This document shows, in pieces, positions 3,620 to 16,212 of a stretch of 64,000 nucleotides of DNA. Below the pieces are notes generated by a model. It had not been told where the DNA came from and searched no databases. It saw only the letters and a program-made list of their open reading frames with translations. Both the position numbers and the translations under genes were made by a program. Positions within the stretch are counted from its first letter, which is position 1; each line of letters begins with the position of its first letter. The DNA lies in NCBI RefSeq assembly GCF_030297175.1, contig NZ_AP028070.1, positions 3,534,001 through 3,598,000 on the forward strand, in the 5' to 3' direction. Source of the stretch: Marinobacter sp. LA51. Lineage in GTDB: Bacteria > Pseudomonadota > Gammaproteobacteria > Pseudomonadales > Oleiphilaceae.

Positions 3620-4111
3620 TTACTGGTCTGTCGCCAGGTCCAGCTCGGCCAGCAACTTGTCCCGGGCCTGCTCGTTGTCCAGCAACTCCTGCATCTTGGA
3701 GCGGAACGACGGCACATTACCCAGCGGTCCTTTGAGGGCGACCAGTGCTTCTCGCAACTCAACCAGCTTACGCAGCTCGGGTACCTGTCGGGCAATGTTA
3801 TCGGGGGAGAAATCATCCAGGGTCTGGATATCGAGGTTCACCGGCAGTTCGTCGGCGTTTTCATCCAGTCTGTTAGTGACCGTGGTGGAGATGCTAAGCC
3901 CGGACTCCTTCATGACAGAACGGAAGTTGTTCTTATCAACGGAAATGGCTTTGCGTTCTTCGATGGGGGTTTCTTCAGCATGACCCTTGAAATCGCCAAC
4001 CACGAACATCTTCAGCGGAAGCTCGGTTTCAGCCTGCTGGTCTCCGGTAGCGGGGACATACTTGATATTGATGCGCTCTTTAGGCGCGACGGATCCGTCT
4101 TTTGAAGACAT
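3620..4111 (-). CDS. tssB: Type VI secretion contractile sheath small subunit TssB
   Basis: I place the start at ATG 4111, giving 163 residues beginning MSSKDGSVAPKERI. An in-frame upstream extension to 4174 has no family resemblance. TssB (VipA) pairs with TssC to form the sheath protomer. The family pattern RINIKYVPATG and the following LKMFVVGDFKG with a downstream PIEERKAISVDKNNF are clear. The C-terminal half is helical, rich in Leu, Arg and Glu (KLVELREALVALKGPLGNVP), as expected for the TssC-binding helix. This is the first gene of the visible T6SS run; no hcp or vgrG is present here. Confidence 0.96.
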   Translation of the reverse strand: MSSKDGSVAPKERINIKYVPATGDQQAETELPLKMFVVGDFKGHAEETPIEERKAISVDKNNFRSVMKESGLSISTTVTNRLDENADELPVNLDIQTLDDFSPDNIARQVPELRKLVELREALVALKGPLGNVPSFRSKMQELLDNEQARDKLLAELDLATDQ

Positions 4112-4236
4112 GCGCTTGCTCCCTGTGCAAATCATTTGCAGTTGTTCAATCCCTTGTACGCGCCTTCCTGGCACGCAACGCAGCGGACTCTACACAGGGC
4201 ATTTTTCGTACTCAAGCAAAAAGTGGCCAGAATGTG

Positions 4237-4768: not shown

Positions 4769-4918
4769 AAACGGCACTCTCTCTATCCAATTTTTTGGCT
4801 GAGGACAATACCCCATTCGTCGGAGGAAAGGAACGTTTGGCCAATGACGTTGGCCCGTGCGGTGGCTATACTCGGCCGAACTCTTTTTACAGCCAATGCC
4901 TACCATAAGGAGATTGAG

Positions 4919-5179
4919 ATGAGCGACCTGAAAACCCAGTTTGACGAAGCGGTGAACTACATCCAGAACGCCGAAGGCGATTTTCAGCCTTCAAACGAGA
5001 TGAAACTTGAGTTCTATGGCCTCTACAAGCAGGCCACCGAAGGCGACGTTTCCGGCAAGCGCCCGGGCATGATGGACTTTGTTGGGCGCGCCAAGTTTGA
5101 CGCGTGGGACAAGCTGAAAGGCACCTCCAGTGAAGAAGCCATGCAGCAGTACATTGATAAGCTGAACGCCCTGAAATAA
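4919..5179 (+). CDS. Acyl-CoA-binding protein (ACBP)
   Basis: The 86-residue protein is a complete ACBP domain: four helices with the ligand-binding core pattern [17 protein letters not shown], followed by [17 protein letters not shown] and the ending helix with AMQQYIDKL. The conserved Tyr, Lys and Trp that hold the CoA part are present (YGLYKQ, AKFDAW). It binds long-chain acyl-CoA in the cytosol. The start at ATG 4919 is supported by AAGGAG at 4907-4912. ACBP is common in eukaryotes but patchy in bacteria; it recurs in wax-ester-forming marine gammaproteobacteria, in line with the proposed host. Confidence 0.95.
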
Positions 5180-5311: not shown

Positions 5312-5623
5312 ATGGATGTCACCGAGGCACTTGAACAATCCCAACCCGGCCTGATTGGCCGCGTCAAAAGCGCTATTCGTGAGCAGGATTTGCACCAGCG
5401 TGCAGAGCAAACCTATCTGCACTGGATTACCCGCTTTGTGCTTTTCCACGATCTGAAAGATCCGGAATCTCTGGCCGGCGAAGACCGCCAGCAGTTTCTC
5501 ACCTATCTCAGTGACCGTATTCAGCTATCGCGAGCACGCCTGAACCAGGCCAGCCAGGCGCTGACCTTCTTCTATCAGGACGTACTGGGCAAAACCGATA
5601 TCGGCGACACCGCCGCAGCCTGA
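5312..5623 (+). CDS. Stand-alone integrase N-terminal SAM-like (core-binding) domain protein
   Basis: The 103-residue protein resembles only the N-terminal core-binding domain of tyrosine recombinases, especially the integron-integrase-like kind: the pattern RAEQTYLHWITRFVLFHDLKDP followed by a second helix pair ending in a segment ALTFFYQDVLG. The catalytic domain with its Arg-His-Arg-Tyr residues is absent, and the frame stops cleanly. The downstream bases do not continue a recombinase in any frame, since an oppositely oriented gene starts its end at 5635. It may bind DNA without cutting, or be a remnant. It has its own upstream region after a strong terminator, so separate expression is likely. 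Confidence 0.75.
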   Translation: MDVTEALEQSQPGLIGRVKSAIREQDLHQRAEQTYLHWITRFVLFHDLKDPESLAGEDRQQFLTYLSDRIQLSRARLNQASQALTFFYQDVLGKTDIGDTAAA

Positions 5624-6451: not shown

Positions 6452-8584
6452 ATGATCCACCCAAGCGGTCCATCTATGTTCAGAACCAGAGCCCGACAGC
6501 ATCTCCGGGCTTCGGCGCTGGCTTGCCTGGCTGCCTCTGCGCCTATTTCTGCAAATCAGAACGATGACCCTTTCTGGGACATTCCCCTGGAAGAGCTGGG
6601 CCAGATCCGCGTGGTGTCCATTGCCTCCGGCTCGGCAACTCCGCTGGATAAAGCCGCTGCTATTACGTCCGTAATCAGCGCTGAGGATATTGCAGCGATG
6701 GGTGCAACGGAGCTGGATCAAGTTCTGGAAACGGTTCCAGGGCTGCACGTGAATCGCGCAGACCAGGCCTTCGCACCCAAGTATGTCTTCCGAGGCATTA
6801 CCACCAGCTCCAACCCCCAGGCTCTGCTGTTGATCAATGGCATCCCTGCGACAACTGCAATGTTTGGCAATCGTGGCAACGTATGGGGCGGTATGCCGGT
6901 AAAAGCCATTCGTCGCATTGAGGTGATTCGTGGGCCAGGCTCAGCGCTCTACGGCGCAGACGCTTATGCTGGCGTCATTAACATCATTACCAAGAATGCT
7001 CAGGACATTGATGGCGTAGTGACCGGCGCCCGTGCGGGCAGCTTTGATACCAAGGGCGCCTGGGTTGAGGCCGCCACCGACTGGAACAACACCGACATCA
7101 GCCTGGTTCTGGAGCAGCAAAGCACCGATGGCTGGCGCCGAACCGTTGACCGGGATGCCCAGACCAATTCCGATGAGGACTTCGGCACCTCAGCGTCCCT
7201 GGCCCCTGGCCCCGTAAACACCTCAGCAGATCAGTTCGAAGCCCGACTTGAAATTAACGGGGATCACTGGGACTTAAGGGCTGGTCTGCAAGACCGCAGA
7301 AACCTGGGCACCGGGGCAGGCCTTGCACAGGCCCTCGATCCAGAGGGTCGCTACGAGTCCCAGCGAATCAACGCGGATTATAGCTACCGATGGCTGGAGG
7401 TCGTTGACGGACTGGATGTCGAATCTCGCATCAGTTATTTCAACTTTATCCAGGAACCGGAGAACGACATCGTGCTATTCCCCCCCGGGGCCTTTAACGG
7501 CGCTTTTCCGGAGGGACTCCTGGGCAGCCCCGGATACAAGGAACGGCAGGCACGGGTTGATCTGAACTCCATCTACAGCAACGTTGAAAACCACCGCATC
7601 CTGGCTGGCATTGGCGCCTTCTGGGCGGATCTCTACGATGTCTCCGAGACCAAGAACTTCAACACCGATTTCAGCCCGAAGGGTGAGGTGGTCGACGTCT
7701 CTGACGATCCCAATCAGGTTTGGATGCCGGAGGAAGACCGGAAGAACTATTACGCCTTTGTGCAGGACGAGTGGCAATTCGCCCAGAACTGGCAGCTGGT
7801 AAGCGGGCTCCGCTACGATTACTACGAGGACTTTGGAGAAACCGTAAACCCGCGGGCTGCGCTGGTGTGGGCCACTACTGACAGTGTTACCACCAAGCTC
7901 CTTTATGGCAGAGCATTTCGTGCTCCGTCTCTGAACGAGCAATATGCCGCCAACAACCCGGTTTTGGCGGGTAACGATGATTTAGACCCGGAAACCATTG
8001 ATACCGTTGAGTTAGCCCTCGCCTACCAGGCAAGCCCCCGATTGCTTCTCGGCGTGAACATTTTCTACTACGAAATTGACGACCTGATTAATGCCGAACC
8101 TATTTCCGGTCCGGTAGCCAGCCAGTACCAAAACTCAGGCAAACGCAAAGGCCGTGGCGGCGAACTGGAAGCGACCTATCAAGTCCTCGACAACCTGAAT
8201 CTGGCAGCAAACTACGCCTACCAAAGGGCTGAAGACCAGGAAAGCAAAGAGTCGGTGGGCGAGGCCCCGAATCACCAGGCCTACGCCCGCATCGAGTGGC
8301 GGGTCAGACCAACGTGGGCCCTTAACACTCAAATCAACTACGTCGGGGAGCAAAAACGGACAGCTGCAGATTCGCGCGAACCGGTGGACGATTACACCAC
8401 CGTGGATGTCACAGCCCGCACCCATGGCCTATGGCGAGGTTTTGATATCGCAGTATCGGTCAGGAACGCCTTTAATGCAGATGTCCGCGATCCGAGTCCA
8501 TATGCCGATCCACGGCCGGCAATACCCGGAGATTTCCCAATGCCCGGACGTTCAGCCTATGTTGAAGCCCAGTACCAGTTCTAA
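6452..8584 (+). CDS. TonB-dependent outer-membrane receptor
   Basis: The 710-residue protein has a signal peptide (a basic start, then SALACLAASAPISA), a plug domain, and a 22-strand-type barrel. The plug shows the usual segments: TSVISAEDIAAMGATELDQ, the LETVPGL motif, and IRRIEVIRGPGSALYGADA with GVINIITK behind it. The barrel has FRAPSLNEQY and ends in aromatic QYQF, typical for barrel assembly. A likely TonB box lies around IRVVS just after the signal peptide. Such proteins import iron complexes, cobalamin or other solutes; the substrate cannot be read from sequence. Start choice: ATG 6452 has GAGG in front; ATG 6476 is an alternative. The stop overlaps by 4 bases the stop of the convergent citrate-synthase-like gene. 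Confidence 0.93.
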   Translation: MIHPSGPSMFRTRARQHLRASALACLAASAPISANQNDDPFWDIPLEELGQIRVVSIASGSATPLDKAAAITSVISAEDIAAMGATELDQVLETVPGLHVNRADQAFAPKYVFRGITTSSNPQALLLINGIPATTAMFGNRGNVWGGMPVKAIRRIEVIRGPGSALYGADAYAGVINIITKNAQDIDGVVTGARAGSFDTKGAWVEAATDWNNTDISLVLEQQSTDGWRRTVDRDAQTNSDEDFGTSASLAPGPVNTSADQFEARLEINGDHWDLRAGLQDRRNLGTGAGLAQALDPEGRYESQRINADYSYRWLEVVDGLDVESRISYFNFIQEPENDIVLFPPGAFNGAFPEGLLGSPGYKERQARVDLNSIYSNVENHRILAGIGAFWADLYDVSETKNFNTDFSPKGEVVDVSDDPNQVWMPEEDRKNYYAFVQDEWQFAQNWQLVSGLRYDYYEDFGETVNPRAALVWATTDSVTTKLLYGRAFRAPSLNEQYAANNPVLAGNDDLDPETIDTVELALAYQASPRLLLGVNIFYYEIDDLINAEPISGPVASQYQNSGKRKGRGGELEATYQVLDNLNLAANYAYQRAEDQESKESVGEAPNHQAYARIEWRVRPTWALNTQINYVGEQKRTAADSREPVDDYTTVDVTARTHGLWRGFDIAVSVRNAFNADVRDPSPYADPRPAIPGDFPMPGRSAYVEAQYQF

Positions 8585-9378
8585 TCGCCCCACTTCCGCT
8601 TAGCCGGTCCGTTGTAAACGATGTTGGCGCAACGGACCGGAAAAAAACTACCCTCCGGCCGATCTCGGGCATCCTGGTAACAGGGAATCATGCCCGATAT
8701 GAAGCAGGGAGTCATAAACAACTGATATTCCTGACAATTAAATCCAACATCGGCTGCAAGCCCGGCATGAATAGCAGCCACATTCATTGAAAAGCCGTAG
8801 GTCTCGTTCAGGTAAGCATACACATCCAGGGCTATCTGGAGATGGCGGCCGCCATCCAGGCCAAACTCCTTGGCTTTTGCCAGCATGTAAGGAACCCGCT
8901 CATCGGTATTGGCCAGTGGGCGCCCATAGCCGAATAACGTTCGACCTGCAGCTTTCTCACCCTCGACAAACTCAATAAGGTCACCACCTGCGTCGCAGTG
9001 CCGCCCAGCCCGGTAAAAGAAATCCAGGGCTCGCACCTCAGGGCGCCGGCCGTAAATCGACGCTTCGGAGACACTCATCCCCGCCATCAACGACAGTGAA
9101 GGCGTCGCACGCACAGTAGCCGCCAACGCTGTCACATGATTCGGCCAGATCGAGGCATCCGGATATCCGGTGCACACCCAAAAGGTGTTGAGCAGCTTGG
9201 CCACGTTCTCCTCAACCTCACGCTCCAGAATGGAGTACAGGTACACCCGCATCCACTCATGGTCGCCAAGATCCTGATGAAGATCCTTGCTGTGCAGGAT
9301 CACCCGGTCCGACAGGAAGGCCTTACCTTTGCGGGTTAGCCAGTGCTTCTCGGTTTCCAGCAGATTTTTGTGGCTCAT
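8581..9378 (-). CDS. Citrate-synthase superfamily protein lacking classical catalytic residues (subunit B)
   Basis: The start is ATG 9378, overlapping the upstream gene by 4 bases, giving 265 residues. The order of motifs follows citrate synthase: a large-domain helix pair ending at EASIYGRRPE (about 105-114), then LFGYGRPLANTDERVPYML (148-165), then MNVAAIHAGLAADVGF (198-213) and an ending ANIVYNGPAKRKW. By eye, Tyr109 sits where citrate synthase has the His of its HGGA motif, Arg153 where it has the His of GFGHR, and Ala201 where it has the Asp of NVDF. If this alignment holds, the protein cannot act as an ordinary citrate synthase. It is last in a three-gene operon after a similar protein and a ThDP enzyme, so it may be a regulatory or structural subunit, or use other chemistry. 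Annotation as citryl-CoA lyase would be possible but unproven. Confidence 0.75.
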   Translation of the reverse strand: MSHKNLLETEKHWLTRKGKAFLSDRVILHSKDLHQDLGDHEWMRVYLYSILEREVEENVAKLLNTFWVCTGYPDASIWPNHVTALAATVRATPSLSLMAGMSVSEASIYGRRPEVRALDFFYRAGRHCDAGGDLIEFVEGEKAAGRTLFGYGRPLANTDERVPYMLAKAKEFGLDGGRHLQIALDVYAYLNETYGFSMNVAAIHAGLAADVGFNCQEYQLFMTPCFISGMIPCYQDARDRPEGSFFPVRCANIVYNGPAKRKWGD

Positions 9379-10205
9379 TCGCGTGCCCCCTTCTGATGCT
9401 GGCCTGCAGGAAATGCATCTTCTTCGAGTTCGATGGCCGGGCCGTAGAAGGGGAAGTTTTTCCATCCCACGTGCTTTTGCTCCAGGGCATGCACCGCGGC
9501 GCCGGGAAGCCTCAGCATCAGGTACAACATACTGCCCTGGTCCTCGTTCATGCCCAAATCCACCAATGCCGCGGCGGCCAGCCCACTCATGGCCAGGGGA
9601 TAGCCAACATGCAGCTCCAGGGCCTGCCGGTTTGCTTTCAGCCAGGCCAGCGCACCATTGGCCGGTGCCAAGCCAGCCAGCAGCTCCAGAGATTGCAGGA
9701 TCGGTGTCGGAGTGGCGTCACCATTGGGATCGAAACCGGGCGCATGCTCCATGGGCAACCAGATGTCGGCGCGCTCGTCATCGCTGGGGTTCAGTAATCG
9801 CTTCTGCCATCGGGTGATGTCGAACTGACATTCCTGCCAGAGCGCCATACAGATCGAGAGCTCCTGGGCGCCTCCGTACTGACCGGCACCAACCGCCAAA
9901 GCGGCCATTAGTGCAGAGCTATGGTTGGTTTGGGCAACACCGGCGTTCATGGCGGCCCGGACACTGGCTTCCCGCGGGCCGGGATTAGCTAGCACCATCG
10001 CCAGCTTTTCCAGCAACGCAGTATCCGGAATTTTCGGCCGCTCTCCCTTAAACAGCAGCAGCAGGTATTCAAACCAGCTGGCGTTGGGAATGACCTCATT
10101 GTGCACATCGTAGCCGCTGCAAAAACTGGCCTTGGCGGCGAATGGATTAGAAGGTTCTGGTTCTTCCAGCCAAATATTGGAGTGGTACTGGTACTCTGTT
10201 GCCAT
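9375..10205 (-). CDS. Citrate-synthase/citryl-CoA-lyase-like protein (subunit A)
   Basis: The 276-residue product resembles the short citryl-CoA lyase or ATP-citrate-lyase C-terminal type of the citrate synthase superfamily. The best segment is AQTNHSSALMAALAVGAGQY followed by GGAQE (91-115), matching the region that ends in HGGAN in citrate synthase but with Tyr110 in place of His; ATP-citrate lyases also have a non-His residue here. A C-terminal piece GYPLAMSGLAAAALVDLGM (201-219) matches the region normally carrying the catalytic Asp, without a clear Asp. It begins 11 bases after the ThDP enzyme and overlaps the next gene by 4 bases, so all three are probably made together, and A and B may form a hetero-oligomer. 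Substrate unknown. Confidence 0.78.
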   Translation of the reverse strand: MATEYQYHSNIWLEEPEPSNPFAAKASFCSGYDVHNEVIPNASWFEYLLLLFKGERPKIPDTALLEKLAMVLANPGPREASVRAAMNAGVAQTNHSSALMAALAVGAGQYGGAQELSICMALWQECQFDITRWQKRLLNPSDDERADIWLPMEHAPGFDPNGDATPTPILQSLELLAGLAPANGALAWLKANRQALELHVGYPLAMSGLAAAALVDLGMNEDQGSMLYLMLRLPGAAVHALEQKHVGWKNFPFYGPAIELEEDAFPAGQHQKGARE

Positions 10206-10216
10206 GCTGATCCCGC

Positions 10217-11941
10217 TTATTCCGTCTCTTTGAGTACTTTCATCCGGACGCCCATGGGCGGCACCTCTTCACGATCAACCAGGATATCAAGCAAGCACGG
10301 GCCGGGACGCGCCAAAATCGACGCCAGATCAAGCTCATGAAGCTCTTCCAGGGTCGCAATCCGGTAGGATTCCACACCAACGGCTTCTGCCATCTTCGCG
10401 TAATCGACGCGTGGCAGCTCATTGGCAATCTGCTCTGCACCGCCCAGCGCCTGGCCATGGCGAATCATGCCCAGTGATGAATCGTTCAGCACCACCATCA
10501 ACACGTTGCAATTCTCCTGGGCTGCGGTGGTGAGTTCCTGGCCCGACATCAAATAGCTGCCGTCGCCCGTCACACACAAAACCGGTTCATCGCGAGCCGC
10601 CAGAGCAATACCCACCGAAGCCCCTATCGCCCAGCCCATCGAAGCGAAACCAACGCCAATGTGAAACAAGTTCCGGGAAGCCAAAGGCCGCCCAGGCTGC
10701 CCAACGCTCCAGTGGTGTATGCCCCACAAAAAGCTGTTACCGGTGTCGAACAGGATCCGCGTTGTTTCAGGGCAGGCCTTGCTCAAATAGGTCATCAGTG
10801 CCGGGGGCTTTACCGGGCCCGACGTGTCGAAGCAGCTTTCCCGGAAACGGCCTTCGACAAACTCGGGAACGCCATCGCCAGTACCCCACGTCGTCGGACT
10901 GATTTTTCCTGGTACCCCACTCAGATCTTTTAAAAGCGCTTCAACAACGTGCCTGGGCTCACCCAGAACCACATGGCCCGCCATGGTTGCCCGAGTTAAG
11001 TGTTCGGGGTTTCTGGACAGGTGAATAAGGCGCGCAGACAGCAGGCCATCCGGACTCCAGCCAGCTGTGGAGACCTCATCCAGGGCAGCGCCTACCATGA
11101 TAACCCTGTCGGCATTTTCCGGCTTCAACGCCTCGGTTGCGCGTTGGTGGCCAGCAAAGCCAAAAACACCCCGGTATTGGGGATGAAAACTGTTCACCAG
11201 GCCCTTACCGCGAGGTGTGGTTACCAGGTTCCAATGCCGCAGCTCCGCTAATTGTATCCATTGGTCTGCCGAGTGGATCGCATCTTCACCCAGCACGATG
11301 GTTGCCTGCATGACATCCGTGAGATCGCTGACTACCCGCTCGACGGAACCCGAATCGGGCACCACTTCATTGGGGATGAAGGCGCTCAGGCCCAGAGCCA
11401 TGGAGGCGTCTTGAACGCCGTGGCGCATAACATCCAGCGGAATAGCCAGATGTACCGGCCCAGGCTGCTGGCCGAGCGCATGGCTTAAGGCATGCAACAG
11501 CTTGGATTCTAGCTGATCAGGATGCGAGACCAACGTGTTGTAGCGGGTACAGCTGGAAAACATATCCAGGGTATTGATGCCAGTGCAGGAGGATTCCTGA
11601 AATGCACCCTGGCCAAATCGGTTCAGCGAAGTCTGTGCAGTTATCACCAACATGGGGATATTGTCGGCGTAGGCGTTTGCCACCCCTGTCAGCAGATTAG
11701 TCGAGCCCGGCCCGGCCGTAGCGCAACAAACGCCAATTCGGCCAGTTTCCCGGGCATAACCATCAGCCATGAAGGCGGCGCCGGTCTCGTGGCGAGCGGT
11801 GACAGCCCGAATTCCACCCTGGCGCTCACTCCGCGCGAGCGCATTATACAGCGGCTCTATGCTGCCCCCAGGAACACCGAACACGTACGCCACTCCCAGG
11901 CGCTCAAGGTACCGCAAAATCAAATCACCACAATCAAGCAT
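10217..11941 (-). CDS. Thiamine-diphosphate-dependent enzyme, acetolactate-synthase-like
   Basis: The 574-residue protein has all three domains of the acetohydroxyacid synthase/benzoylformate decarboxylase fold. Near the start are GVAYVFGVPGGSIEPLYNAL and TARHETGAAFMADGYAR, containing the catalytic Glu that activates ThDP, then TAGPGSTNLLTGVANAYADN. The C-terminal ThDP/Mg motif is GDGSYLMSGQELTTAAQ ending in LNDSSLG. The enzyme therefore looks active. Possible reactions are carboligation or decarboxylation of 2-keto acids; the exact substrate is not readable. A classical acetolactate synthase would usually have a small regulatory subunit next to it, absent here; instead two citrate-synthase-like genes follow. 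Glyoxylate carboligase is less likely, as the gene is 8 kb from hyi and garR. Confidence 0.88.
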   Translation of the reverse strand: MLDCGDLILRYLERLGVAYVFGVPGGSIEPLYNALARSERQGGIRAVTARHETGAAFMADGYARETGRIGVCCATAGPGSTNLLTGVANAYADNIPMLVITAQTSLNRFGQGAFQESSCTGINTLDMFSSCTRYNTLVSHPDQLESKLLHALSHALGQQPGPVHLAIPLDVMRHGVQDASMALGLSAFIPNEVVPDSGSVERVVSDLTDVMQATIVLGEDAIHSADQWIQLAELRHWNLVTTPRGKGLVNSFHPQYRGVFGFAGHQRATEALKPENADRVIMVGAALDEVSTAGWSPDGLLSARLIHLSRNPEHLTRATMAGHVVLGEPRHVVEALLKDLSGVPGKISPTTWGTGDGVPEFVEGRFRESCFDTSGPVKPPALMTYLSKACPETTRILFDTGNSFLWGIHHWSVGQPGRPLASRNLFHIGVGFASMGWAIGASVGIALAARDEPVLCVTGDGSYLMSGQELTTAAQENCNVLMVVLNDSSLGMIRHGQALGGAEQIANELPRVDYAKMAEAVGVESYRIATLEELHELDLASILARPGPCLLDILVDREEVPPMGVRMKVLKETE

Positions 11942-11994: not shown

Positions 11995-13680
11995 TTATTC
12001 GTTCAGGGGAACCGGCATCGCGATGCCATAACCCTGTGCGTAGTCGAAGCCGAGTTTGGTGAGGCAGTCTTTCACGTCATCGTTTTCGACAAATTCGGCG
12101 ATGGTTTTCAGTCCGGCGGCGTGGCCGATGCGATTGCAGGCGTCGACGATCCCCATATCAATTGGATCGGCGAGCAAGTTCTGGATAAAGCCCCCATCCA
12201 CCTTCAGATAATCAATCGGCAGGGCTTTGAGATAGGTAAAGGAGCTCATTCCGGTACCAAAGTCATCGAGGGCAAACTCGAAACCTTCTTTACGGGCTCG
12301 CTCGATAAACCCGATCGTATCGTTTAAATGCGCAATGGCAGACGTTTCGGTGATTTCAAAGCAGATCCGAGCCGGAAGGATGGAATACTCCTGAACCTTG
12401 CGATGTATGAATTGGAACAACTCACCATCGCTGAGAGAGCCACCGGACAAGTTGATGAAAAAAGTACCGGTGGATTCCCGGCCGAGGCCAGTGCGGTCCA
12501 GGTAGGCAAATGCCAGGTCAATGACCCTCCGGTCAATGCGCGGCATCAATCCGAAGCGCTCTGCCGCCGGGATGAAAGCGCCGGGAGGCACAATGTCGTC
12601 ACCGTCACGCAAGCGCACCAGAAACTCGGTTCGGAAACCGTCGGCACTGGCCTCCTGCAGGGGAATCATTACCTGGTGATACAGGAAGAAATCGTCGGTT
12701 TGCAAGGCGCTCTGAAGGCGACTGGTCCAATGCATATCGCGCTGGCGCTGTTGCATGTTCAGGTCACTGGTTTCGTAAACCTGAACGTTGTCCCGCCCCC
12801 GGTCCTTGGCGGCATAGCAGGCCAAATCGGCGTGGCTGAGCAGCTCGCTGGCCGTTTTGTAATTACTCCCCATGATCACCATACCGACGCTGAGGGAGAC
12901 AGCGAACGGCTTATCCTCCCAGACAAAACGGTATTCACGGACCTCTTTGCACAGGTTTTCTGCAACCTTGCGGGCATCCACCGCGTCGCAGTTCCGCAAC
13001 AGTATCCCAAACTCGTCGCCACCTAATCGTGCCAGGGTGTCGGATCCTCTGAGCCTCAGTCCGAGCAATTTCGAAAGCTGTTTAAGCAGTTCATCGCCGG
13101 CCATGTGGCCGCAGGTGTCGTTGATAATCTTGAACTGGTCGAGATCCAGGTACAGCAACACGCAATCGCGCGCTGACTTGCGGGAATCATGGAGTGACTG
13201 AACTAGCTGGCGTTCAAATTCCCGACGATTAACCAGATCGGTCAGGCTGTCGTGATAGGCCATGTGCTCCAGGGTCGACTCGGCACGTTTTTTGGCAAGG
13301 CGGATGGACACTTCCCGCATCTCGCGCTGAATCGCAGGAATCAACCGGTTCAGGTTGTCCTTCATGATGTAATCCTGAGCGCCGGCCTTCATTGCACTTA
13401 CTGCGACGTCCTCTCCAATCAAACCGGACACGATAATCACCGGCAAATCGGGCGCATATTGGCGGCTCAGTTCCAGCACCCGAAAGGAGGTAAAACCAGG
13501 CAAGCTATGATCGGTGATGACCATATCCCAGATTTCTTCCATGAGCGCGGTTTCCATCGCGCTCTCGCTGTCCACCACTCTGTAGTAGGGCTCAATGCCC
13601 CCCTTTTTCAGAGCGCGCAACAGAAGGAAGGTGTCATCCTCAGAGTCTTCAATCAGCAACACCCGAAGGCGGCTTTTCAT
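11995..13680 (-). CDS. REC-GGDEF-EAL response regulator (c-di-GMP turnover)
   Basis: About 561 residues from ATG 13680 (GGTGAG just upstream; GTG 13695 is an alternative). Domain order: receiver (about 1-120) with phospho-acceptor Asp in MVITDHSLPGF; GGDEF (about 140-290) with intact LARLGGDEFGILL and an RGSD inhibitory site five residues before it; EAL-type domain (about 310-560). In the latter the signature reads TEFLVRL instead of EAL, but the Glu is kept, as are NLSGG, EITET, the DDFGTG motif, YLKVDG and AEFVEN. Both cyclase and phosphodiesterase activity are thus possible. It is last in the operon with a YfiR-like protein, sensor kinase and single-domain regulator, and is a likely output of that kinase. 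Confidence 0.92.
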   Translation of the reverse strand: MKSRLRVLLIEDSEDDTFLLLRALKKGGIEPYYRVVDSESAMETALMEEIWDMVITDHSLPGFTSFRVLELSRQYAPDLPVIIVSGLIGEDVAVSAMKAGAQDYIMKDNLNRLIPAIQREMREVSIRLAKKRAESTLEHMAYHDSLTDLVNRREFERQLVQSLHDSRKSARDCVLLYLDLDQFKIINDTCGHMAGDELLKQLSKLLGLRLRGSDTLARLGGDEFGILLRNCDAVDARKVAENLCKEVREYRFVWEDKPFAVSLSVGMVIMGSNYKTASELLSHADLACYAAKDRGRDNVQVYETSDLNMQQRQRDMHWTSRLQSALQTDDFFLYHQVMIPLQEASADGFRTEFLVRLRDGDDIVPPGAFIPAAERFGLMPRIDRRVIDLAFAYLDRTGLGRESTGTFFINLSGGSLSDGELFQFIHRKVQEYSILPARICFEITETSAIAHLNDTIGFIERARKEGFEFALDDFGTGMSSFTYLKALPIDYLKVDGGFIQNLLADPIDMGIVDACNRIGHAAGLKTIAEFVENDDVKDCLTKLGFDYAQGYGIAMPVPLNE

Positions 13681-13702
13681 GTCACTCACCAGCACTACCT
13701 TT

Positions 13703-14164
13703 TCAGAATGATCGGGACGAACCGACCATGGGGACTTGATTTACCGTTAACCAATAGCGAGCCAGCAAGCACATCTGCTCACTAAACCTACTATAGTCAA
13801 TCTGCTTGGTAACGAAGCTATTGGCACCCAGCCGATAAGCTTCGCGCAGTTCGCTCGGCTCATCCGACGAAGTCATCATGACCACCGGCAGCCAATCCGT
13901 CTGCGGCGTCGAACGGATACGCCGCAAAACCTCAAGGCCACTGACCTTGGGCAACTTGAGATCCAGAAGAATTACACCAAGAGTGTCGACCTGGGGTGAA
14001 CGTTTGCTGCTTTCGGTGCCAAAGAGAAATTCAAGAGCGGCCTGACCGTCCTCCTGAAGAATAATCGGGCTCTGACTGCTCGCCTTCCGGAGCGCCCGCA
14101 TCGTCAGGATCTGGTCATCGGGGTTGTCTTCAACAACCAGAATAGAACAATCACCTTTAGCCAT
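13703..14164 (-). CDS. Single-domain response regulator (Rcp1-like)
   Basis: The 153-residue protein is only a receiver domain: acidic pocket in ILVVEDNPDDQIL, phospho-acceptor Asp in GVILLDLKLPKVSG, conserved Thr/Ser in VVMMTSSDEPSE and Lys in NSFVTKQ. The Rcp1-type features are the NPDD start and a long insertion before the Asp, with the family's usual kinase partners being phytochrome-like. It has no DNA-binding or enzyme output domain, so it probably relays phosphate or regulates by protein contact. It lies 48 bases after the kinase gene and 22 bases before the REC-GGDEF-EAL gene. Confidence 0.92.
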   Translation of the reverse strand: MAKGDCSILVVEDNPDDQILTMRALRKASSQSPIILQEDGQAALEFLFGTESSKRSPQVDTLGVILLDLKLPKVSGLEVLRRIRSTPQTDWLPVVMMTSSDEPSELREAYRLGANSFVTKQIDYSRFSEQMCLLARYWLTVNQVPMVGSSRSF

Positions 14165-14212: not shown

Positions 14213-15670
14213 TCAGCCACGATCCGGGCGGGGAAACTCTAAATAGAAGCAAGCACCACTGTCGATTGGCGATTCAGCGAATACCCGGCCGAAATGGCGC
14301 CGTACTACCCGATCTACCGTGGCTAGCCCCAAACCCGTTCCGGAGAATTGGGCCGGGGTATGCAAACGGTTAAAAGCCACAAACAGCTTGTCGACATACT
14401 TCATATCGAACCCCACCCCATTGTCCTTCAACGCGATGGTAATACTGTTGAGCTCTTCACACGCAGACACATCAATCGCTCTTTTCTCGTTTTTTGAGGT
14501 GTATTTCCACGCGTTTTCCAGCAGGTTCTGGAAAGCAATGCGTAACATGCGCTCATCGCCAACCACCTGCATGTCCGGCTGAATGGTCACTTCCGACGGC
14601 AACGTGTCGACAGTGTCCTGCAATTCCTCAACGATTTCCGCCAGCATAGTACTCAGGTCAACGCGCTCGACCTCCATGGCCTGCCGACTGACGCGGGAAA
14701 GTACCAGCATGCCGTCAATCAGGCTTCCCATTCTCACGGTCGCAGCACGAATTCTAGCCAGATAATCGAGACCGACATCATTCAATTGTTCCCGGCAGTC
14801 CTCCTCAAGGGCCTGACCGAAACCCTCGATGGCTCTCAGGGGCTGACGCAAATCGTGGGACACCGAAAAACTGAACGCTTCCAGCTCACGGTTAGCCAGA
14901 CTCAGTTCCGAGGTTCGCTCGGCAACCGTGCGCTCCAGGTCATCCTTGCTCTGCAGGATTTTCTGGTTCTGGTCCTGGATGGTGCCAATCATCTCGTTAA
15001 ACGCACTGCCCAGACGGCCCAACTCGTCTTTTCCGTACACCGGCACGCGAATGGAGTAATCATGCTCATGGGAAATCCGGTCGGCGGCATTGGAGAGCTC
15101 AACGATGGGCTCAGAAATCAATCGCTGAAGACGCGACGCCACCCAGATCAACAGCCCCAGTATCCCGATACCCACGCTGAACGATATGACGATGAAGGTC
15201 CAGATGTGCTCCCGAAGCACCTCGAGCCGGGACATCAGATAAAATTGCCCCACAATATCGCCATCCAACATGACCGGTTCAAGCAGACGATAATAGTCGC
15301 CCACAAACCCCACTTCCGGCTCGGCATCCAGGCTGGGGCACGGTTCGTAGCCTGTCCCGTTCAAGGCACTCATGAGGTCCCCTGCAACGTTATAGACGCA
15401 GACCTGCTCAATGGTATTGATCTGATTCAGGCTCGAGATAATGGTGTTGATCTGCTGACTGTCCTCAAACAGCAGAGCTGCGGCCGACTGCTCCGCCAGG
15501 ATGTCTGCAATGACGTGCAGCTCAGACTCAAGCTGTTCCTCGGAGGTGCGATTTTCCACCACAACCAGACTGGTGCAGACGAGCAGAATACCCAGGGTAC
15601 TGATGGAGACCGTCAGCAACAGGAGCTTGGTTTTCAGGGGCCAATACTGCCAGCGCCAGCGCTCGCTCAT
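14213..15670 (-). CDS. CHASE8-like HAMP sensor histidine kinase
   Basis: 485 residues. A first membrane segment (about 13-35) is followed by a periplasmic part with EEQLESELHVIADILAEQSA and AALLFEDSQQINTIISSL, which resembles the CHASE8 domain of YfiN/TpbB. A second membrane segment (about 155-180), a HAMP linker, a coiled stretch and then a kinase core follow: phospho-acceptor His in SVSHDLRQPLRAI, N-box NLLENAWKYTS, and Gly boxes DNGVGFD and GTGLGLATV. In YfiN the same sensory half carries a GGDEF output; here it is a kinase. The start overlaps the end of the yfiR-like gene by 4 bases, so the two should act as a pair across the inner membrane. Confidence 0.9.
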   Translation of the reverse strand: MSERWRWQYWPLKTKLLLLTVSISTLGILLVCTSLVVVENRTSEEQLESELHVIADILAEQSAAALLFEDSQQINTIISSLNQINTIEQVCVYNVAGDLMSALNGTGYEPCPSLDAEPEVGFVGDYYRLLEPVMLDGDIVGQFYLMSRLEVLREHIWTFIVISFSVGIGILGLLIWVASRLQRLISEPIVELSNAADRISHEHDYSIRVPVYGKDELGRLGSAFNEMIGTIQDQNQKILQSKDDLERTVAERTSELSLANRELEAFSFSVSHDLRQPLRAIEGFGQALEEDCREQLNDVGLDYLARIRAATVRMGSLIDGMLVLSRVSRQAMEVERVDLSTMLAEIVEELQDTVDTLPSEVTIQPDMQVVGDERMLRIAFQNLLENAWKYTSKNEKRAIDVSACEELNSITIALKDNGVGFDMKYVDKLFVAFNRLHTPAQFSGTGLGLATVDRVVRRHFGRVFAESPIDSGACFYLEFPRPDRG

Positions 15671-16212
15671 CGGATCACCCTCAAGGCGAGTTCCAGCAAG
15701 CGGGAGTTGATCTGGAGCCCAGATTTCTGGGCCGCCAGCAAATTGATCTCAAAGCGAATAACGTTGCCTTCCTTGACGTAGCCGATGATTCCCCCTTCCT
15801 CGACGAAATCGGGGATCTCACTGATGGTCAGAATTTGCCGGGCATGCGCAAAGTCGGTGATCTCGGCAAGAGCGCGGGCTTTGTCAGCACCCACGAACAG
15901 CACCTGGCAGCGATCGATCTCCTGCAACGAAGCAGGAAAATCCAGCTTAAGAGCCCGGCCCTGGGACACGCGGCCATTCAACTGTTGAAGTACATCGCCA
16001 AACGGGTTTCTGCCAAAAACACAGATGGTCAACCCGGTCATTTCCTCAGAAGGCTCAGACCAGGTGATAAAGCGAGTGAAGTTATAGAGAAATGCTGCCT
16101 TTACCTCATATTCTGAACGCACTGCACCGTAGGCCGTCCCCAGGGTCGACCACAGCAGCATCGCTATGAGAAATTTTAAAAACACCTGAGGGCAGCCCCC
16201 GGCCACATGCAT
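15667..16212 (-). CDS. YfiR-like periplasmic regulator (DUF4154 family)
   Basis: The 181-residue protein has a signal peptide (VFLKFLIAMLLWSTLGTAYGA) and the DUF4154 pattern SEYEVKAAFLYNFTRFITW, with later LTICVFGRNPFGD, CQVLFVGADKA and ILTISEIPDFVEEGGIIGY. YfiR proteins are periplasmic repressors that bind the periplasmic domain of their membrane partner, in Pseudomonas the diguanylate cyclase YfiN. The partner here is probably the CHASE8-type kinase that overlaps its stop codon. It is the first gene of a four-gene operon. One Cys is kept in the ICVFG segment and one in RCQVL; whether they form a disulphide is unknown. Confidence 0.9.
   Translation of the reverse strand: MHVAGGCPQVFLKFLIAMLLWSTLGTAYGAVRSEYEVKAAFLYNFTRFITWSEPSEEMTGLTICVFGRNPFGDVLQQLNGRVSQGRALKLDFPASLQEIDRCQVLFVGADKARALAEITDFAHARQILTISEIPDFVEEGGIIGYVKEGNVIRFEINLLAAQKSGLQINSRLLELALRVIR

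Follow-up and report, generated by a model that had tools for sequence, protein, structure and literature searches.

A thiamine diphosphate enzyme linked to two citrate-synthase-like proteins without the canonical catalytic residues, encoded beside receptor and sensor genes in Marinobacter

Gene order at the T-A-B locus

The window analysed here, a 64,000-nucleotide stretch of the single-contig, 3.77 Mb genome of Marinobacter sp. LA51 (NZ_AP028070.1, positions 3,534,001 to 3,598,000), carries three adjacent minus-strand genes that we term T, A and B. T encodes a thiamine diphosphate (ThDP) enzyme resembling acetolactate synthase; A and B encode paralogous proteins of the citrate synthase superfamily, both lacking its set of three catalytic residues. 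Together with a receptor and sensor proteins encoded alongside, the three may make a small molecule that is later sensed. The nearest named relatives come from Marinobacter, with B 97% identical in M. sediminum R65. In window coordinates the gene set is:

6452..8584, plus strand: dedicated TonB-dependent receptor (Pfam plug and barrel), convergent with B
8581..9378, minus strand: B, citrate-synthase-superfamily paralogue 2, 265 amino acids
9375..10205, minus strand: A, citrate-synthase-superfamily paralogue 1, 276 amino acids
10217..11941, minus strand: T, acetolactate-synthase-like ThDP enzyme, 574 amino acids (Pfam TPP_enzyme_N/M/C)
11995..13695, minus strand: response regulator-GGDEF-EAL protein (Pfam), ending 53 bases upstream of T
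13703..14164, minus strand: response regulator with a single receiver domain (Pfam)
14213..15670, minus strand: histidine kinase with CHASE8 periplasmic sensor and HAMP domains (Pfam)
15667..16212, minus strand: YfiR/HmsC-like periplasmic protein (DUF4154; Pfam, 142 bits), which opens the run

The seven minus-strand genes form a run in one direction, from the YfiR-like gene through the histidine kinase, response regulator and response regulator-GGDEF-EAL genes to T, A and B, with successive gaps of -4, 48, 7, 53, 11 and -4 bases. An earlier description of this sequence, here called the original prediction, held T, A and B to be a tight minus-strand operon; the last two gaps, at the end of the run, agree with it, and the linkage is a genuine operon. 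The TonB receptor gene overlaps B by 4 bases at the 3′ ends. The original prediction left out the receptor, the YfiR or binding-protein genes and the kinase and GGDEF-EAL genes, and these shift the likely meaning of the set from plain metabolism to the making and sensing of a small molecule. In the response regulator-GGDEF-EAL protein the GGDEF motif is intact and the likely EAL motif reads EFL.

Active sites and family membership

Citrate synthase chemistry is carried out by two His residues and one Asp, in the motifs HGGA, PGFGH and NxD. All three are visible in our comparison proteins L118, L120 and L121 (L and G numbers are our own labels). Residues were counted among the 120 nearest listed homologues of each protein, out of 1955 matches for A (from a search that scored 8000 candidates) and 160 for B, and also in a genome set of 55 A rows and 52 B rows that includes more distant members. 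Two alignments, A1 and A2, join the window protein to 27 and 22 sequences, respectively, hand-chosen from the 120 listed in each case. The three sites read as follows:

9876..9878, minus strand: A Tyr110, first catalytic His site (HGGA); 111 Tyr, 9 Leu and 0 His of 120 listed
9726..9731, minus strand: A Asp159-Pro160 (GFDP), His site of PGFGH; Asp in 119 and Glu in 1, Pro in all 120 listed
9585..9587, minus strand: A Ser207, catalytic Asp site; 94 Ser, 22 Thr, 3 Val, 1 Ala and 0 Asp of 120 listed
9052..9054, minus strand: B Tyr109, first catalytic His site; 108 Tyr, 11 Phe and 1 Trp of 120 listed
8920..8922, minus strand: B Arg153, second catalytic His site; Arg in 120/120 listed and 52/52 of the genome set
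8776..8778, minus strand: B Ala201, catalytic Asp site; 96 Ala, 13 Ser, 8 Val, 3 Gly and 0 Asp of 120 listed

The canonical His/His/Asp set appears at the aligned columns in none of the 120 listed A proteins and none of the 120 listed B proteins. The replacements first noticed in the window, Tyr110 in A and Tyr109, Arg153 and Ala201 in B, were thus confirmed in both groups of homologues; loss of the whole triad, which the original prediction ascribed to B only, holds for B but was drawn too narrowly, since A is also without the set, having Asp159-Pro160 and Ser207 at the other two sites. In the genome set, 7 of 55 A rows, from the far branch, still have the first His, the only triad residue kept, and the Asp site of B is Asn in 6 of 52.

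Other residues are fixed across both branches of each paralogue: His239 (53/55) and Glu242 (54/55) in A, and Arg153, Asp159, Arg161 and Cys250 (each 52/52) in B, all in the genome set. Near-branch A proteins share Glu153, His154 and Arg232, each present in 120/120 listed homologues and in only 40, 44 and 44, respectively, of the 55 genome-set rows. Active-site His or Asp residues elsewhere in A or B would have counted against the loss of the triad; the aligned places hold none, but near-branch His154, which directly precedes PGF, could on its sequence position stand in for a catalytic His. Citrate synthase lends a carboxylate-binding Arg to the neighbouring subunit. For this role B Arg249, kept in 107/120 listed and 43/52 genome-set proteins, is a candidate by position, in a stretch poorly placed in the model.

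Predicted single-chain models of A and B give the citryl-CoA (CoA, coenzyme A) lyase / citrate synthase fold, with citryl-CoA lyase the nearest. Scores of the two proteins lie below the family cut-offs (PF00285, 15.7 and 19.4 bits against 27; NF004864 for citryl-CoA lyase, 39.1 and 21.5 bits against 261), and PF00285 is marked for some homologues in the precomputed Pfam annotation. Among the matches listed, database names are citryl-CoA lyase, citrate synthase, citrate/2-methylcitrate synthase, citrate synthase family protein and hypothetical protein. A and B thus share the fold of PF00285 and NF004864 but differ from citryl-CoA lyase and citrate synthase in the replacement of all three catalytic residues in both, in their pairing as paralogues and in their sub-threshold scores.

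In a tree of 51 hand-chosen proteins (25 A, 25 B and one citryl-CoA lyase outgroup), A and B fall on opposite sides of a branch with 100/100 support, a split that implies one old duplication followed by joint inheritance; the root is not fixed, because the lone outgroup sits on a long branch. The two adjacent superfamily members of the original prediction are therefore a conserved paralogue pair and, as judged from this tree, an old duplicate pair. Decay into pseudogenes was considered and rejected, with ratios of nonsynonymous to synonymous substitution (dN/dS) of 0.04–0.08 in the comparison with L011; T gave 0.10 with L012 as partner and A gave 0.07 with L020, and the other four comparisons had saturated dS and gave no ratio. 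A role in ordinary citrate metabolism was likewise rejected, given two full citrate synthases elsewhere in the genome and the lost catalytic residues. In M. salarius R9SW1 (L014:9172-10004) and M. similis A3d10 (L051:9175-10004) A reads as two overlapping frames, through either a sequencing error or a true disruption, with T and B whole.

The closest solved relatives of T are BbmA (E 1e-95) and CsmA (E 1.6e-82), followed by acetolactate synthase I (E 2.9e-60). BbmA and CsmA are ThDP enzymes that link carbon to carbon (PDB 8x3x, 8x3z), and BbmA can be inferred to share the activity of CsmA. T has the domain set and ThDP motifs of the acetolactate synthase large subunit, with Glu52, Gly459-Asp460-Gly461 and Asn486-Asp487 invariant in 17 aligned T proteins, but scores 316.7 bits against TIGR00118, below the cut-off of 538.35. 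It differs at two further places from L168 and L169, acetolactate-synthase-like proteins of the same genome: T Gly496 is Trp in L168 and Gln in L169, and T has Ala where they have the Arg of GARFDDR/GARLDDR. BbmA also has Gly at the first of these places, where acetolactate synthase has Trp and where PDB 8xod (G484F) differs. We take the Trp and Arg sites to be acceptor-site residues of acetolactate synthase, so that Gly496 and the Ala suggest a wider acceptor pocket in T.

Co-inheritance and neighbouring genes

Of the 46 loci of named genomes that were picked by B, 45 carry all three of T, A and B, the exception being a contig that starts just before A. The T profile used for the locus counts was itself built from B-picked loci, with cut-offs set by us. 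Homologues scattered without the ThDP gene, named beforehand as evidence that would tell against the grouping, are thus not what is seen. Among 38 relatives A is present in nine, and T (>400 bits) in the same nine, the next T-like protein scoring 244 bits. Of 274 class genomes, 32 gave a match to the A model and 37 carried strong T (640 bits or more); 29 had both, three A only and eight strong T only, and there was one further T-like match (G102, 346 bits). The A match in G216 was rejected, the A model having hit B there (in L119, B, TonB receptor and binding protein are present and A is absent), so that genuine A accompanies T in 28 genomes, not 29; our Fisher test of co-occurrence ignored phylogeny and counted G216 as A-bearing. 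As to the three A-only genomes, L118 is a weak match rejected as A, being a genuine citryl-CoA lyase that carries HGGA, PGFGH and NIDG and adjoins a CoA transferase; in L116 a fragmented T lies next to A and B; and in G165 no T was found. Among 31 class loci fetched around A matches, 23 hold all three genes; L111 (A without B) and L106 (a B piece of 43 bits only) were both scored as misses. T was found in 10 of 398 genomes of the phylum, and all eight T-picked loci outside the earlier samples hold A and B.

A natural fusion of T and A was found in L041, a contig from a metagenome-assembled genome, where one open frame covers T (residues 23-593) and A (residues 612-880). The tie between the A/B pair and the ThDP enzyme that had been proposed for the window is thus borne out by linkage, co-inheritance and fusion. 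Two other apparent fusions were rejected: L104 (an 886-amino-acid frame) is L041 again, both contigs having 19,739 bases, and the N-terminal stretch of T in L136 has no Pfam domain and looks like an upstream frame.

The receptor and periplasmic genes travel with the set. TonB receptors of one family were found in 42 of the 46 B-picked named loci; orthologues are present in 8 of the 9 A-bearing relatives and, elsewhere among the 38, as one weaker match (G030, 280 bits, no A). Among 25 same-genus genomes, the five that have the YfiR gene are the five that have A; outside the genus, three genomes from other families gave weak matches (≤88 bits). As periplasmic partner, 23/46 named loci have a YfiR-like protein and 9/46 a PF04392 binding protein. 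Outside the class, in L163-L166, TonB receptor, A, B, T, binding protein and a frame of ~770 amino acids follow one another in one direction with no gaps, and in L165 the ~770-amino-acid frame is a histidine kinase. The binding protein of L165 resembles TrpX (88 bits), a hint of an aromatic ligand that is too weak to use. L159-L161 have no TonB match and a protein of 1727–1771 amino acids after B; in L161 this is a 1727-amino-acid Ser/Thr kinase-AAA-GAF-histidine kinase, and a LuxR-type regulator comes next.

Of the protein families that recur in more than 7 of the 79 loci, short-chain dehydrogenase/reductase (SDR) is the only enzyme beyond T, A, B and the signalling proteins; SDR matches of at least 100 bits occur in 9 of the 46 named loci. 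Inside or beside T-A-B in other loci are a sulfotransferase (L056:10597-11895), a glutamine-dependent amidotransferase of the asparagine-synthase type (L113:11298-13211) and a carbamoyltransferase (L045:13872-15662), which suggests varied decoration of one core product. A KASIII-like enzyme (L135:4691-5683) and a methyltransferase (L139:8006-8803) each take the place of A and B in a locus that retains T, TonB receptor and binding protein, as would be expected of exchangeable tailoring, and the KASIII-like case, one locus, points to an acyl-CoA step. In L138:9147-13191 a T gene without A or B adjoins genes for a histidine kinase and a FIST-domain protein.

Proposed function and its alternatives

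The position of T-A-B beside an outer-membrane receptor and sensor kinases raises the possibility that its product is taken back up and sensed, and the kinases and cyclic di-GMP proteins favour a signal. We rank a signal first, a metallophore second and scavenging third, and give a probability of roughly 0.45 to the proposal that the product of T-A-B is a small molecule released from the cell and sensed as a signal on its return. In this scheme T, by analogy with its family, would couple two 2-keto acids to give an alpha-hydroxy-beta-keto acid or the decarboxylated alpha-hydroxyketone. A and B, with their citryl-CoA lyase fold and rebuilt active site, would jointly act on the product of T, most likely with an acyl-CoA; they are probably a re-purposed heteromeric enzyme acting after T, a mixed oligomer by analogy with citrate synthases. 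The optional genes (SDR and, singly, sulfotransferase, amidotransferase and carbamoyltransferase) would decorate the product in some species. Gene content further suggests that the cognate TonB receptor carries the molecule into the periplasm, that the histidine kinase receives it there from the YfiR-type or PF04392 binding protein, and that the kinase acts on cyclic di-GMP enzymes or a response regulator. The broader proposal, that this is a class of signal systems across Pseudomonadota in which T and a heteromeric, triad-less A-B make decorated signals derived from 2-keto acids, each with its own TonB receptor, binding protein and kinase, is doubtful at present.

Several observations weigh against a signal. 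T-A-B has no known product, exporter or regulator target. Uptake of a small alpha-hydroxyketone should work without a TonB receptor, which favours a larger or metal-bound ligand, and T-A-B lacks a TonB match of at least 250 bits in 4/8 phylum loci and 5/31 class loci, within the DNA fetched. The sulfotransferase, amidotransferase, carbamoyltransferase, KASIII-like enzyme and methyltransferase each come from a single locus, and annotation of single-locus neighbours covered a minority of them; searches around the KASIII case (75 genomes) and the methyltransferase case (76) gave no T genome beyond those already seen and no second variant, and three same-genus relatives of the methyltransferase-case genome are without T. 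Strong T lacks an A match in 8/37 genomes (the contigs of G101 and G243 stop immediately behind T), and T lies away from A/B in G108, G234, G238 and G216. Mirror-tree correlations are 0.63–0.89, without a background control.

A TonB receptor of its own is the usual hallmark of chelate uptake, and citrate-like alpha-hydroxy acids chelate metals, so that T-A-B might instead make a small alpha-hydroxy acid or diol chelator, with TonB importing the metal complex and the sensor reporting the supply of metal or chelator. Among solved structures, the window's TonB receptor is nearest to CirA, the colicin I receptor (124 bits), with enterobactin receptors next; against the siderophore model TIGR01783, whose cut-off is 223.5, the window's receptor scores 146.1 bits. 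We nevertheless consider a metallophore unlikely. Coupling to kinases and GGDEF-EAL proteins, as in this gene set, is unusual in plain iron uptake, and a search that covered Fur only found no Fur-like box in the window at ≤3 mismatches, its positive control being thin, a single site elsewhere in the genome. Nor did upstream regions stand out from shuffled sequence: the best match to the box averaged 10.70 (out of 19) upstream of 43 T genes (shuffled, 10.81) and 10.95 upstream of 41 TonB genes (shuffled, 10.94). The set could also run in the lyase direction, TonB importing an outside compound that the sensor detects and T and A-B degrade. Such scavenging would suit a receptor and sensor arranged for substrate-induced uptake, the likeness of A and B to citryl-CoA lyase, itself a C-C lyase, the ability of ThDP enzymes to act as lyases, and L111, where A lies beside AMP-binding and FadB-like genes. 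It appears improbable, however, as no genes leading toward central metabolism recur (SDR being the sole further enzyme above the 7-locus level), the three single-locus modifying neighbours are of biosynthetic types and T is nearest to BbmA and CsmA.

It is about equally improbable that A and B are not enzymes at all, and instead serve T as structural or regulatory subunits, in the manner of the acetolactate synthase small subunit, or form a ligand-binding sensor pair. Loss of the canonical residues in both, the T-A fusion and the near-constant company of the three genes in the named loci would all fit, as would the restriction of Glu153, His154 and Arg232, the would-be new active-site residues of A, to its near branch. 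The strong T genomes without an A match show, however, that A/B is not an obligate subunit of T, and in L135 and L139 other enzymes occupy the A/B place; the polar residues fixed across both branches of A and of B, and the first His retained in part of far-branch A, also speak for catalysis.

A returning signal has a parallel in alpha-hydroxyketone signalling by CqsA/CqsS and LqsA, which resembles T-A-B in predicted product class and in the linkage of synthase and sensor kinase. To our knowledge, CqsA/LqsA-type synthases are pyridoxal phosphate (PLP) enzymes, and those systems have no TonB receptor or citrate-synthase-like protein. T, with three TPP_enzyme domains, is ThDP- rather than PLP-dependent and so does not belong to that system, though it may work alike. 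PqsBC, a signal-biosynthesis heterodimer in which one subunit is without catalytic residues, offers an analogy, of our own drawing, to an A-B heterodimer; its fold is that of KASIII (thiolase), not of citrate synthase. Among the open-access titles and abstract openings listed, with subscription papers mostly outside the scope, we found no published description of T-A-B with its receptor and sensor genes. The folds and modules are known, but their combination and the state of the active sites were not found described.

If a returning signal is correct, a widespread gene set now named citryl-CoA lyase, citrate synthase or hypothetical is a system of small-molecule production and sensing, and the annotation of T, A and B as enzymes of the citrate cycle or of branched-chain amino acids is wrong. 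A new signal, or metallophore, could then be isolated from culturable marine bacteria. Catalysis on a citrate synthase fold that has lost the His/His/Asp set, and in which a conserved Arg has replaced one catalytic His, would be a new solution.

Other genes lie beyond the TonB end of the set. A frame at 5312-5623 (plus strand) encodes a 103-amino-acid, stand-alone phage-integrase N-terminal SAM-like domain adjoining that end, and may be a remnant of an element that moved the T-A-B set; a family of 103–108 amino acids, perhaps the same, is present in five close Marinobacter loci. Further out are an acyl-CoA-binding protein frame (ACBP, PF00887) at 4844-5179 (plus strand), whose first ATG overlaps an opposite-strand DUF4442 frame, and a type VI secretion sheath protein (VipA/TssB) at 3620-4174 (minus strand).

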